Below are positions 6,975 to 26,576 of a stretch of 34,674 bases of DNA, piece by piece. The first letter of the stretch is position 1. Each line of letters starts with the position of its first letter. Both the position numbers and the translations under genes were made by a program. Under the pieces are notes generated by a model. The model was not told the origin of the DNA, did no database searches, and saw nothing but the letters and a program-made list of their open reading frames with translations. The stretch is from a virus: positions 1 to 34,674 of IMG/VR virus record IMGVR_UViG_3300024262_000124; one strand, written 5' to 3'.

Positions 6975-7661
6975 TTATACAGATAGGGTTACGCGATAAT
7001 TAATTACCCACGCATCGTTAGTGATACGAGGCACTTCAGCGAATTTATATCCAACTGATGCATTCAGAGCCAAAGGCCCGTCATAGATAGGTGGACGATA
7101 AATAAACTGACTGGAATAGCCGTCTTGCTCGATGCAACAGAAAGCCTCAAGTCCACAACAAAATACGTTGTAGATGTCCGCACCGTTCATTGATGCGTTA
7201 GCTGAAAGTGAACCGATTGAAGATAGCAAGAAACGTAAGTTCGATACTGAACCGTATTCAGGTCTTAAGACTCTGTCTTGATTCGGGTACTGAACTTTAG
7301 CGATGAAACCAGTTACACGGTCTAGGTCACCAATAAGATTAGTGTTTCCTAGTGCGAAAAAGGCATCACGAACAGGTGCAGAACCAAAGCGGTCCTCCCC
7401 TTCAATGCCATCACTGATAGTGTAAGCATTATTAGAAAGTAGCACGCGGATGATGTCGTCGACATCTTCACGAGCCAATTCTGTTGGATTATCCCCATTA
7501 ACGCCCGATACGCCATTTACAAAACTTGCTGAAGAACTGAGCATTTCACGCGTTAGTTCATCCTCTGTTTGACGGAGGCTAACCCCTAGACGCTGAGCGG
7601 CTTCGTTCAGAACTGGATCCTGATTTTGAAGCGTTACTTGCTCGTTGAGGTATATATATGT
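6975..7661 (-). CDS. Major capsid protein (N4-gp56-like), exon 2
   Basis: Exon 2 of the intron-split capsid gene. Read in frame from the 3' splice site it begins TYIYLNEQVTLQNQDPVLNE, then AAQRLGVSLRQTEDELTREM, and runs to the C-terminal VGYKFAEVPRITNDAWVINY before the stop. These blocks fit the N4-gp56 family of HK97-fold capsid proteins: a LNEQVT..N.D.VL.EAA..L.....Q..D.L.R.ML segment, then a helix with DVDDIIRVLLSNNAY, the YPNQDRVLRPEYGSVSNLRFLLSS stretch, and the closing GYKF....I.....VI motif. Part of this exon (up to residue TREM) has no start codon of its own, which is explained by splicing to exon 1. The joined product is 316 residues (88 from exon 1, 228 from exon 2). It forms the capsid shell. 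Confidence 0.9.
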   Translation of the reverse strand, partial: TYIYLNEQVTLQNQDPVLNEAAQRLGVSLRQTEDELTREMLSSSASFVNGVSGVNGDNPTELAREDVDDIIRVLLSNNAYTISDGIEGEDRFGSAPVRDAFFALGNTNLIGDLDRVTGFIAKVQYPNQDRVLRPEYGSVSNLRFLLSSIGSLSANASMNGADIYNVFCCGLEAFCCIEQDGYSSQFIYRPPIYDGPLALNASVGYKFAEVPRITNDAWVINYRVTLSV

Positions 7662-8410
7662 CGGCGCTGTTACTTTCGGTCCCTCATGACCTACTGACCC
7701 TAGCTTTCACTATGGGCGGGGGACGCTCTTCGGCTTCCCCTCTTACGGTTTCCCGCAAGTTCAGACTATCGCTTACGAAGGCGATGACGCACTAACGTCT
7801 CGTCCCCTTCGTCCTCTGGGCTTAGTCGTTGCTGGTACAGAAACCACTCCGTTGAGTTTCCTCATTTCCATCCATGCACTTTCTCGCAAATGCTGGATTT
7901 CCGGAGTTATACGGATGCCATTGAAACTTACCCATTCTTCCATGAACTTAAGGCAAAGGTTCGCTTGTTCTTTTTTAACAAGCAAAAATGGCATAACTAG
8001 CGTTAGGAATTTTTGGACATCATCTTTTTTTCTAACCATCCAACGATACATTGGACGTTTATGATGATAAGGCTTTTCTTCGTGAACTTTACCAACCCCT
8101 GTAACTTCTACGATTAAATCCAAAGCAACTCTCTCAAGCATTCCAACACGAATACAAGGTGCATAATGAGGGTGATAACATCCCCTTAATGCTCTTTGTT
8201 CCATGAATGATTTGCTTGCTTGCCTTTGAATCATTATTGACCCTTCTCCATCTATTATTCCTGCGATATACGCTAACTTCTCTGCTTCCATCGGGTTATC
8301 CTACTGTGTTAATATATGTTCCGCATATATTATACACAACTTAGACTTTCCCGTAATCACCAAAGGTTTTATTACGGCACATGTTATGCAGCTTCCTGCA
8401 TCTTTGCCCA
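7662..8410 (-). other. Group I intron in the major capsid gene
   Basis: A 749-nt intron. P1: exon UACGGU (8411-8416) pairs with internal guide GCCGUA (8373-8378), placing the expected U.G pair at the 5' splice site after base 8411. P10: AUGU (8379-8382), directly next to the guide, pairs with ACAU at the start of exon 2 (7658-7661). P3: CCUUUGG (8360-8366) with CCAGAGG (7813-7819). P4: CGGG (8350-8353) with CCCG (8292-8295). P5 region: nine-pair stem 8310-8318/8324-8332. P7: GACUA (7823-7827) with UAGUC (7764-7768). P8: ACGAAGG (7806-7812) with CCUUCGU (7775-7781). P9: UUGCGG-GAAA-CCGUAA (7743-7758). The last intron base is G (7662), as required. Joining the exons keeps the frame (264 + 687 nt). 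The pairings are read directly; self-splicing is inferred. Confidence 0.93.
7773..8291 (-). CDS. LAGLIDADG homing endonuclease inside the intron
   Basis: A 172-residue protein. The N-terminal LAYIAGIIDGEGSI (residues 6-19) is a textbook LAGLIDADG motif with its acidic metal-binding residues. A second copy is not evident, and the length fits a single-motif enzyme that works as a homodimer. It is expected to cut intronless alleles of the capsid gene and so spread the intron. The ATG at 8291 has an AGGA site and sits directly at the 3' strand of P4 (CCCG-AUG), so the gene fills the P6 region of the intron. Its last roughly 20 codons cover the P7 5' strand, P3 3' strand and P8, so protein and ribozyme share sequence. 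The basic C-terminus (KPRGRRGRD) is encoded by this structural RNA. Confidence 0.93.
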   Translation of the reverse strand: MEAEKLAYIAGIIDGEGSIMIQRQASKSFMEQRALRGCYHPHYAPCIRVGMLERVALDLIVEVTGVGKVHEEKPYHHKRPMYRWMVRKKDDVQKFLTLVMPFLLVKKEQANLCLKFMEEWVSFNGIRITPEIQHLRESAWMEMRKLNGVVSVPATTKPRGRRGRDVSASSPS

Positions 8411-12147: not shown

Positions 12148-12163
12148 TTTAGCGGTTAGAACA
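12138..12163 (+). pseudogene. tRNA 5'-half remnant (Glu-like)
   Basis: GGCCCCG-TA-GTTT-AGCGGTTA-GAAC-A reads as the acceptor 5' strand, positions 8-9 and a complete D arm of a tRNA. The sequence then changes at once into the start codon of the HNH gene. The matching acceptor 3' strand (CGGGGCC) and T arm are not found downstream in this window, so the gene is broken. Confidence 0.6.
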
Positions 12164-12699
12164 TGAAAAAATGCGCAAAGTGTAAATCATACATCCCTAA
12201 TTGGATAACTATAGAGGGAGTAAAGAAAAATTTAAGCAAACGTCGTTTTTGCTTATCTTGCTCCCCTTTTGGACTTAGGAATAGAATTGATTATACGAAA
12301 TATGACGATAGGGAAGGTTATAAAACATGTCGAAAGTGCGAAACTGAAAAACACTTAAGATACTTTTATAAATGCGATGAGAAAAGAGATAAAGCTAGTT
12401 CGGTGTGTAAATCTTGCCACGGAGAAATGATTAAAGGACGGCTTAAAGGGTATAAGAGACTTTGTTTAGACTACAAAGGGTCTAAGTGCTCGATTTGTGG
12501 TTATAATAGATGCGTAGAAGCTCTTGAATTTCATCATCGCGATAATATAGAAAAAGAATTTTCTATATCTAACGCACGATTTAAGAAATTTGATGATAGA
12601 ACAAAAAAAGAACTCGACAAATGTGACGTTCTTTGTGCTAACTGTCATCGTGAAGTACACGCCGGGGTCAATGTACAGGGTAGCTTTAGTTTGTTGTGA
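12163..12699 (+). CDS. HNH homing endonuclease next to tRNA genes
   Basis: A 178-residue protein. It has CxxC pairs for zinc (CAKCKSY at the N-terminus, CLSC, then CRKC and CKSC around residues 65-95), and a C-terminal HNH core of about 45 residues: CSICGY...ALEFHHRD...KCDVLCANCHREVH. The paired Cys residues and the HH...N..H residues are in place, so catalysis is plausible. Its ATG follows directly after the D arm of a truncated tRNA, and two intact tRNAs lie just downstream. This suggests an invading mobile gene that replaced the tRNA 3' half. No clear ribosome site precedes the ATG, so expression may depend on upstream translation. Confidence 0.85.
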   Translation: MKKCAKCKSYIPNWITIEGVKKNLSKRRFCLSCSPFGLRNRIDYTKYDDREGYKTCRKCETEKHLRYFYKCDEKRDKASSVCKSCHGEMIKGRLKGYKRLCLDYKGSKCSICGYNRCVEALEFHHRDNIEKEFSISNARFKKFDDRTKKELDKCDVLCANCHREVHAGVNVQGSFSLL

Positions 12700-12776: not shown

Positions 12777-12847
12777 TGCGAAGTAGTTCAGTGGTAGAAC
12801 ATCGGATTTTGATTCCGAGGGTCGCACGTTCGAATCGTGCCTTCGCA
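12777..12847 (+). tRNA. tRNA-Gln (anticodon TTG)
   Basis: The acceptor stem TGCGAAG/CTTCGCA is perfect (7 pairs). The D arm is GTTC...GAAC, the anticodon stem TCGGA/TCCGA with loop TTTTGAT (anticodon TTG), and the T arm GCACG-TTCGAAT-CGTGC. It is a complete cloverleaf of 71 nt without an encoded CCA end. Confidence 0.93.
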
Positions 12848-12850
12848 TTT

Positions 12851-12924
12851 GGATAAGTAGAACAATTGGCTAGTTTATCAGCTTGTCACGCTGAAGGTTG
12901 AGGGTTCAAATCCCTCCTGTTCCG
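12851..12924 (+). tRNA. tRNA-Asp (anticodon GTC)
   Basis: Anticodon stem TCAGC/GCTGA with loop TTGTCAC (anticodon GTC) and T arm GAGGG-TTCAAAT-CCCTC. The D stem is GAAC/GTTT with a compensating change. The acceptor stem GGATAAG/CTGTTCC has two mismatches in the middle, which is unusual and may mark a decaying or edited tRNA. It lies three bases after tRNA-Gln. Confidence 0.85.
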
Positions 12925-12948
12925 TTTAATATAACAACAAGGAAAAAC

Positions 12949-26102: not shown

Positions 26103-26576
26103 ATGAAGGAATGCAAACGTTGTCACATATCTAAAACACTGGATTCGTTTCATAAACATAGGGGTTTTAAAGACGGTAGAAGAACACAATGCAAAGACTG
26201 TGCAAATTCTGAGTCTAGAAAATACTATAGTGAAAATCGTGAGTCACATCTAGAATCGTGCATGGACTGGCAAAGACGAAATATGGATAAGGTACGTGCG
26301 TATCAAGTCAATCATCGAAAGAGAAAAGCTAACTCTGATAATTTATATAAAACAAGTCACCCGCTTCGTGTACGCGCACAAAAGAAACTGAACTATGCGG
26401 TATTTAAAGGTGAAGTTCAAAAGATTAAGAGTTGCCAAGTTTGTGGTAACTGTGAAGCAAAAACAGAGGCTCATCACTATGATTATGATAAGCCTCTAGA
26501 AGTAATTTGGGTATGTATTGCTTGTCACGGCTGGATACATAGAAAACATAGGCCTGCACTAGTGTCGGCCGCTTAA
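26103..26576 (+). CDS. HNH endonuclease
   Basis: A 157-residue protein with the ATG at 26103 and a GGAGG site. The N-terminus has CKRCHISK and CKDCANSESRKYYSENRESH zinc-type pairs. The C-terminal CQVCGNCEAKTEAHHYDYDK, then CIACHGWIHRKHR, is an HNH core with HH, the Asp-containing YDYDK stretch and a second CxxCH. A mobile, free-standing homing endonuclease is the likeliest reading. It is at the end of the rightward recombination operon, followed by a bidirectional terminator. Confidence 0.85.
   Translation: MKECKRCHISKTLDSFHKHRGFKDGRRTQCKDCANSESRKYYSENRESHLESCMDWQRRNMDKVRAYQVNHRKRKANSDNLYKTSHPLRVRAQKKLNYAVFKGEVQKIKSCQVCGNCEAKTEAHHYDYDKPLEVIWVCIACHGWIHRKHRPALVSAA

Follow-up and report, generated by a model that had tools for sequence, protein, structure and literature searches.

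Introduction

Introns in the capsid genes of phages are already known. The major capsid gene of mycobacteriophage LittleE holds a probable group I intron, whose splicing was shown by RT-PCR (PMC3706429), and the same paper cites a capsid subunit gene of lactococcal phage Tuc2009 whose intron is self-splicing. The intron described here resembles that of LittleE in lying in a phage major capsid gene, in containing a LAGLIDADG-like open reading frame (ORF), and in being preceded by U and ending in G; it differs in that the LittleE capsid is modelled on HK97 and the intron there measures 819 bp, has its ORF on the opposite strand and occupies a different site (PMC3706429). Tuc2009, likened here through its description in that paper, shares the capsid-gene location but belongs to another phage group. 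The present locus adds a new capsid family, N4-gp56, to these examples.

Relatives of this gene carry a short insert, devoid of a group I core, upstream of a full intron. Trans excision-splicing is the removal, by a group I core, of a short segment, with P1, P10 and a terminal G marking its limits. This reaction is mentioned for engineered group I ribozymes in PMC6155759; it is engineered and bimolecular, whereas the arrangement in the relatives is natural and the core lies on the same transcript. Neighbouring group I introns in phage Twort orf142 and in the SIOphi polymerase gene undergo exon skipping (PMC11878797). The relatives likewise have close group I introns in one phage gene, with competing splice sites, but their small middle exon must stay if a full capsid is to be made. 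We know of no core-less intron among the Twort and SIOphi introns. In fungal mitochondria, tandem and ratchet group I introns separated by tiny exons or pseudoexons are removed stepwise; these modules carry cores (PMC12308204), whereas the upstream unit in the relatives does not.

Splice junctions and reading frame of the capsid gene

The window, i.e., the whole 34,674-nt stretch of viral DNA analysed, contains on its minus strand a 316-codon major capsid gene of the N4-gp56 family, interrupted between codons 88 and 89 by a 749-nt group I intron (8410-7662; all coordinates refer to the window and to this strand unless marked otherwise). Exon 1 (codons 1-88; 8674-8411) reaches codon 88 with ..TTCTACGGT and ends in ..GATTTCTACGGT, terminating in TACGGT. 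The second half restarts at 7661 in a different frame, with ACATATATATACC.., and extends to 6975 (codons 89-316 plus stop). Removal of the phase 0 intron, whose last base is G, yields an in-frame protein of 316 amino acids (..QMDFYG|TYIYLNEQV..). This joined protein matches the N4-gp56 major capsid model TIGR04387 over residues 4-308 (126 bits, 2e-36), compared with only 40 and 47 bits for the separate ORFs, so that the joined form alone exceeds the equivalog cut-off of 60 bits. In unspliced RNA, the capsid frame stops eight codons into the intron, at a UAA (8386-8384) in the P1 loop, and only a truncated capsid would be made.

The insertion point can be read from uninterrupted relatives. The nearest ones, viral contigs 93-80% identical to the window protein in alignments of residues 1-316, are continuous across DFYG-TYIYLNEQV. 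In their DNA, the GGT-intron-ACA of the window corresponds to GGC/ACC or GGA/ACG; one such intronless site is ..TTCTACGGC/ACCTAT... Altogether, the site is covered by 176 distinct capsid loci, of which 103 are uninterrupted over codons 80-106, the nearest being 93% identical. No close capsid relative was found among annotated phage genomes, where the best identity was about 23%. The initial annotation, made from the sequence alone, had proposed a group I intron with cuts after 8411 and after 7662, an N4-gp56 alignment that continues across the joint, and a truncated product from unspliced RNA. The coordinates are correct: the frame is kept, the empty sites agree with them, the core helices covary (see below) and the capsid profile is rescued by the joining.

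The intron core

The helices named at that stage (P1, P10, P3, P4, P7, P8 and a GAAA-capped P9) are all present. P1 pairs UACGGU, at the 3' end of exon 1 (8416-8411), with the internal guide strand GCCGUA (8378-8373), its terminal U.G lying at the 5' splice site. P10 joins the adjacent AUGU (8382-8379) to the first bases of exon 2, ACAU (7661-7658), and this pairing covaries in relatives. For the remainder of the core, a group I structure written by hand was applied to an alignment of 19 cores: that of the window with its ORF deleted and 18 compact introns from other positions of related capsid genes. P3 (CCUUUGG, 8366-8360, with CCAGAGG, 7819-7813) covaries at seven of seven pairs, and P4 (CGGG, 8353-8350, with CCCG, 8295-8292) at four of four. 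The P5 region (8345-8300; UCUA 8345-8342 with UAGG 8303-8300) is paired in 77.6% of cells; P7 (GACUA, 7827-7823, with UAGUC, 7768-7764) is paired in all cells and covaries at three of five pairs. P6/P6a is formed by UGG..CAGA (8290-8281) and UCUG..CCA (7841-7833), the alignment supporting UGG/CCA and the endonuclease ORF being inserted beyond the 5' strand. P9 is the hairpin CUUGCGG-GAAA-CCGUAAG (7759-7742), also covered by the alignment, while P8 (ACGAAGG..CCUUCGU, 7812-7775), drawn by eye, and P9.1 (GGGG..CCCC, 7740-7719) were recognised in the window sequence.

Over the whole alignment, 92.6% of the cells assigned to helices are paired, versus 37-52% when the partners are slid by one to three columns, and two-sided changes occur at 24 of the 30 pairs, a number equalled in none of 500 shuffles. 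These figures imply that the helices are not due to chance. The intron thus displays the hallmarks of group I: a P3-P7 pseudoknotted core with P4-P6, P8 and P9, a P1 ending in U.G, P10 and a 3'-terminal G.

The initial annotation had looked to the Rfam group I model as a check; RF00028 does match the intron, but weakly (21.5 bits, E 0.006) and below its gathering score of 50. This low score is partly accounted for by the ORF, which splits the core. Rfam scans of the window and 20 related loci yielded no gathering-level group I match, and close relatives with complete 200-nt cores likewise fall under the RF00028 cut-off, so that the silence of this model on the window says little. RF00028 is insensitive to this capsid-intron family, and a gathering score is a search threshold rather than a biochemical definition. 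A second weak RF00028 match in the record (7245-7544, 13.6 bits) was discarded, as it lies within the capsid coding sequence. A covariance model was built from 14 of the relatives' introns in the alignment, leaving the window out. It found a single match in the 34.7-kb record, 7911-7739 (39.2 bits, E 7.7e-7), which is the capsid intron. The match rests on the P7-P3'-P8-P9 half, the core being divided in two by the ORF: about 440 nt of it intervene between the P3-P6 and P7-P9 parts, and no single model spans an intact core.

The intron-encoded endonuclease

The ORF within the intron (8291-7773), absent from the initial account of the intron, encodes a LAGLIDADG homing endonuclease of 172 amino acids with one motif, LAYIAGIIDGEGS (8276-8241). 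Its start codon overlaps P6, and its coding sequence traverses P7, P3' and P8. Pfam family PF00961 (LAGLIDADG_1) matches all four homologues (best E 9e-5), the window copy by itself scoring 17.5 bits (E 0.008), under the curated cut-off of 23.1. A profile of the four homologues matches I-CreI structures (PDB 1bp7 and others) at about 1e-7, which suggests a likeness to this single-motif LAGLIDADG enzyme. I-CreI is an algal chloroplast enzyme, unlike the phage-borne protein of the window. Among endonuclease copies, dN/dS is about 0.11-0.20. As judged from substitution patterns, the endonuclease is under purifying selection, and so is the capsid. From its location, the endonuclease would be expected to cut intronless capsid alleles at the insertion site.

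Identity of the window intron

We consider it nearly certain (probability about 0.95) that the insertion is a group I intron, mobile and self-splicing, and that its host gene encodes the major capsid protein of an uncultured tailed phage with an N4-gp56-type capsid and a P22-like portal. The core structure, the exact empty site and the purifying selection on capsid and endonuclease are apparent from sequence comparison; splicing and homing are what they predict. In the first step, pairing between the UACGGU of exon 1 and the guide strand would form P1, and attack by guanosine after U8411 would free exon 1. The freed exon would then attack after the terminal G7662, positioned by P10, and the capsid frame would be restored. 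The I-CreI-like endonuclease presumably cuts the same site in intronless capsid genes, causing the intron to be copied in.

Given that the source is a metagenome contig and that the capsid halves occupy different ORFs, one might ask whether the capsid is a pseudogene or an assembly artefact, with the insertion representing a free-standing endonuclease gene. This is extremely improbable. A near-identical intron is found in another contig (L084), diverged copies (L085, L092 and L243) keep the same splice sites, the group I core is complete, and the exons are conserved.

Introns at this and other positions of related capsid genes

Besides L084, which carries the same intron as the window, L085/L086 (794 nt) and L092 (747 nt) have, at this site, diverged introns that share its core and endonuclease, and L243 has a further full intron (731 nt) there. 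In L087/L088, the window's core and endonuclease lineage is placed at a downstream site. A spliced protein-to-DNA aligner, which required a T before each intron and a G as its last base, was run over 184 distinct related loci and revealed insertions at approximately 30 positions of the capsid gene, with up to six per gene (L199; codons 79, 88, 97, 104, 261 and 275). Calls in the divergent loci L183, L184, L193, L195, and L083 at 234, were wrong and were excluded. Among the 80 best matches obtained with exon 1 as sole query, 16 proved to be interrupted somewhere. These figures answer the doubt, voiced in the initial annotation, whether an N4-gp56-type capsid gene is a common intron site; this gene is an intron hotspot.

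Five genes (L199, L178, L218, L222 and L240) contain four to six group I insertions each, many of them about 195-215 nt long and without an ORF. In such genes, one intron lineage has apparently spread over many positions of a single gene. In L121, the intron at codon 97 (from 3353) contains what resembles an ORF on the opposite strand, rather than the usual co-oriented LAGLIDADG gene.

Stenotrophomonas phage StenR_269 (OR838459; L083) also has an N4-gp56 capsid gene, adjacent to a related LAGLIDADG gene that is annotated as an intron homing endonuclease. It was considered as a precedent for a capsid intron and set aside: its capsid ORF is complete, so this is probably not a capsid intron. The LAGLIDADG gene lies directly upstream of the capsid gene (3900-4500 of L083), with an apparent repeat of the capsid start (ATGTCTTTTAGTGGTATG .. 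ATGAGTTTCTCGGGTATG).

Core-less inserts at codon 88 in relatives

In 61 loci, the site between codons 88 and 89 is filled only by an insert of 28-65 nt that has no core but keeps P1, P10 and the terminal G. The guide strand is GCCGUA, as in the window, and P1a pairs at six of six positions in 60 of the 61, a figure to be read with the fact that the scan which yielded many of these loci selected the P1a pattern, fixing the guide strand and leaving the variable base of P10 free. Watson-Crick pairing of this free base with the third position of codon 89 is seen in 60 of 61 loci, and all four pair types occur (G-C, 28; U-A, 12; A-U, 10; C-G, 10; one mismatch). The exon tree requires no fewer than 16 changes of the base, and 43 of 44 pairs are intact. 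When the 250 variable wobble columns are ranked, codon 89 comes first, at 0.98 versus a mean of 0.23 (sd 0.08). The mini-insert thus covaries with a synonymous exon base. All mini-inserts end in G, a base imposed by the aligner; their boundary is independently fixed because the exon side is Thr-Tyr following Gly.

A full group I intron is present 26-52 nt downstream, at codon 97, 104 or 105, in all 47 testable P1-selected loci, as against two of the 77 genes without a mini-insert in the exon-1 sample (Fisher, 3e-32). The 3' part of the mini-insert is joined to the short middle exon by a helix, which we call S (mean score 8.46; permuted maximum 5.83). Helix S usually ends 7-8 nt before the downstream 5' splice site when the latter is at 97.2 or 105.2, and 6-11 nt before it when it is at 104.0, so that at each of the three sites its end adjoins P1 of the downstream intron. 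The sequence of the mini-insert therefore varies with where the downstream intron lies. Minimum-energy folds at site 97 gave P1a, S and P1b (P1 of the downstream intron) as consecutive hairpins before the core in 47 of 47 loci. One unselected locus (L292), a MAG contig and the only relevant one in the bacterial genome bins, has the same organization: a mini-insert, a P10 of AGGU/ACCU, an S that matches likewise, and a downstream intron at 105. The capsid relatives L290, L291 and L292 belong to MAG bins of Simkaniaceae, Parachlamydiaceae and Methylococcaceae. The two chlamydial bins hint that environmental Chlamydiota are hosts to some of these phages, although bin assignments can be misleading.

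In codon-97 introns (L231, L274, L244, L258 and others), a stretch of about 10 nt in the P1b loop (TTGGTTTTGTA) is complementary to exon 3 (TACAAAACCAA); it resembles the S strand used with the core at codon 105.

A model for excision of the core-less inserts

Excision of the mini-inserts, its timing ahead of the downstream intron and catalysis by the neighbouring core are suggested by these features. The pairings, the covariation, the co-occurrence and the geometry can be read directly in the aligned loci. From the P10 covariation, the position of helix S and the link to the downstream intron, we infer that one ribozyme would act on both inserts in turn. In this scheme, the core of the intron at 97, 104 or 105 would first accept P1a and use the mini-insert's own 3' splice site, with S and P1b stacking where an ordinary P2 sits. 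Exon 1 would be joined to the middle exon at the terminal G of the mini-insert, with loss of 28-65 nt. P1b would then dock and the downstream intron would remove itself. We think it likely, though less assured than the identity of the window intron, that the downstream ribozyme excises the core-less 28-65-nt mini-introns of some 60 relatives and subsequently itself, one core thus serving two introns. The synonymous capsid base and the tether helix S would then probably be under selection for this function. All sequence predictions of the scheme are borne out in the mini-insert relatives, within the limits set by an aligner that demanded T/G borders and by one scan that selected the P1a pattern; the window itself carries the core-bearing form.

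The mini-inserts cannot simply be translated, since 59 of 61 contain an in-frame stop and none is both open and in frame; in all 61, a stop or the frame precludes read-through. Nor can they be part of one larger intron running from exon 1 to exon 3, whose removal would lose nine codons and the frame. A different proposal is that ribosomes skip the inserts, as in the translational bypassing of T4 gene 60 and of mitochondrial byp elements. The size of 28-65 nt, the hairpin that takes in the last codon before the gap and the stop codon inside the gap would all suit such a process. Bypassing requires, however, a landing codon that matches the take-off codon. Here the take-off codon is GGU and the last triplets of the inserts are AAG, AUG, UUG, UAG and others, none of which matches, and we reject bypassing on this ground. 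It would also fail to account for the covariation between P10 and the exon that follows, or for the strict association of the mini-inserts with a downstream intron, and we regard it as very unlikely compared with excision by the downstream ribozyme.

The literature, searched largely beyond subscription journals, provided no natural core-less or core-sharing group I intron. The window and its relatives make it testable whether a single natural group I ribozyme processes two introns in order. If the core is shared in this manner, an intron can lose its core and come to depend on a neighbour, and a stepwise route opens from self-splicing to splicing by a separate catalyst. Such a transition has been proposed to explain how shared splicing machinery arose. 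It would also follow that inserts of very small size, usually put down to frameshifts or errors when met in phage genes, can be introns, a point of consequence for annotation.

Other features of the window and related loci

Two loci contain, outside recognised capsid sequence (L237, 8-39; L279, 2615-2646), the pattern TACGGT..GTGCCGTAR followed by TAAAAC or TAAAAT, as at the 5' ends of the group I introns. These could be introns of other genes that share the guide strand. Two small proteins encoded on the plus strand of the window (12163-12699 and 26103-26576) have paired C-x2-C and His motifs and resemble free-standing HNH endonucleases; neither of these putative HNH proteins had a Pfam match at threshold. 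Also on the plus strand, adjoining genes for tRNA-Gln (UUG) and tRNA-Asp (GUC) occupy positions 12777-12925.
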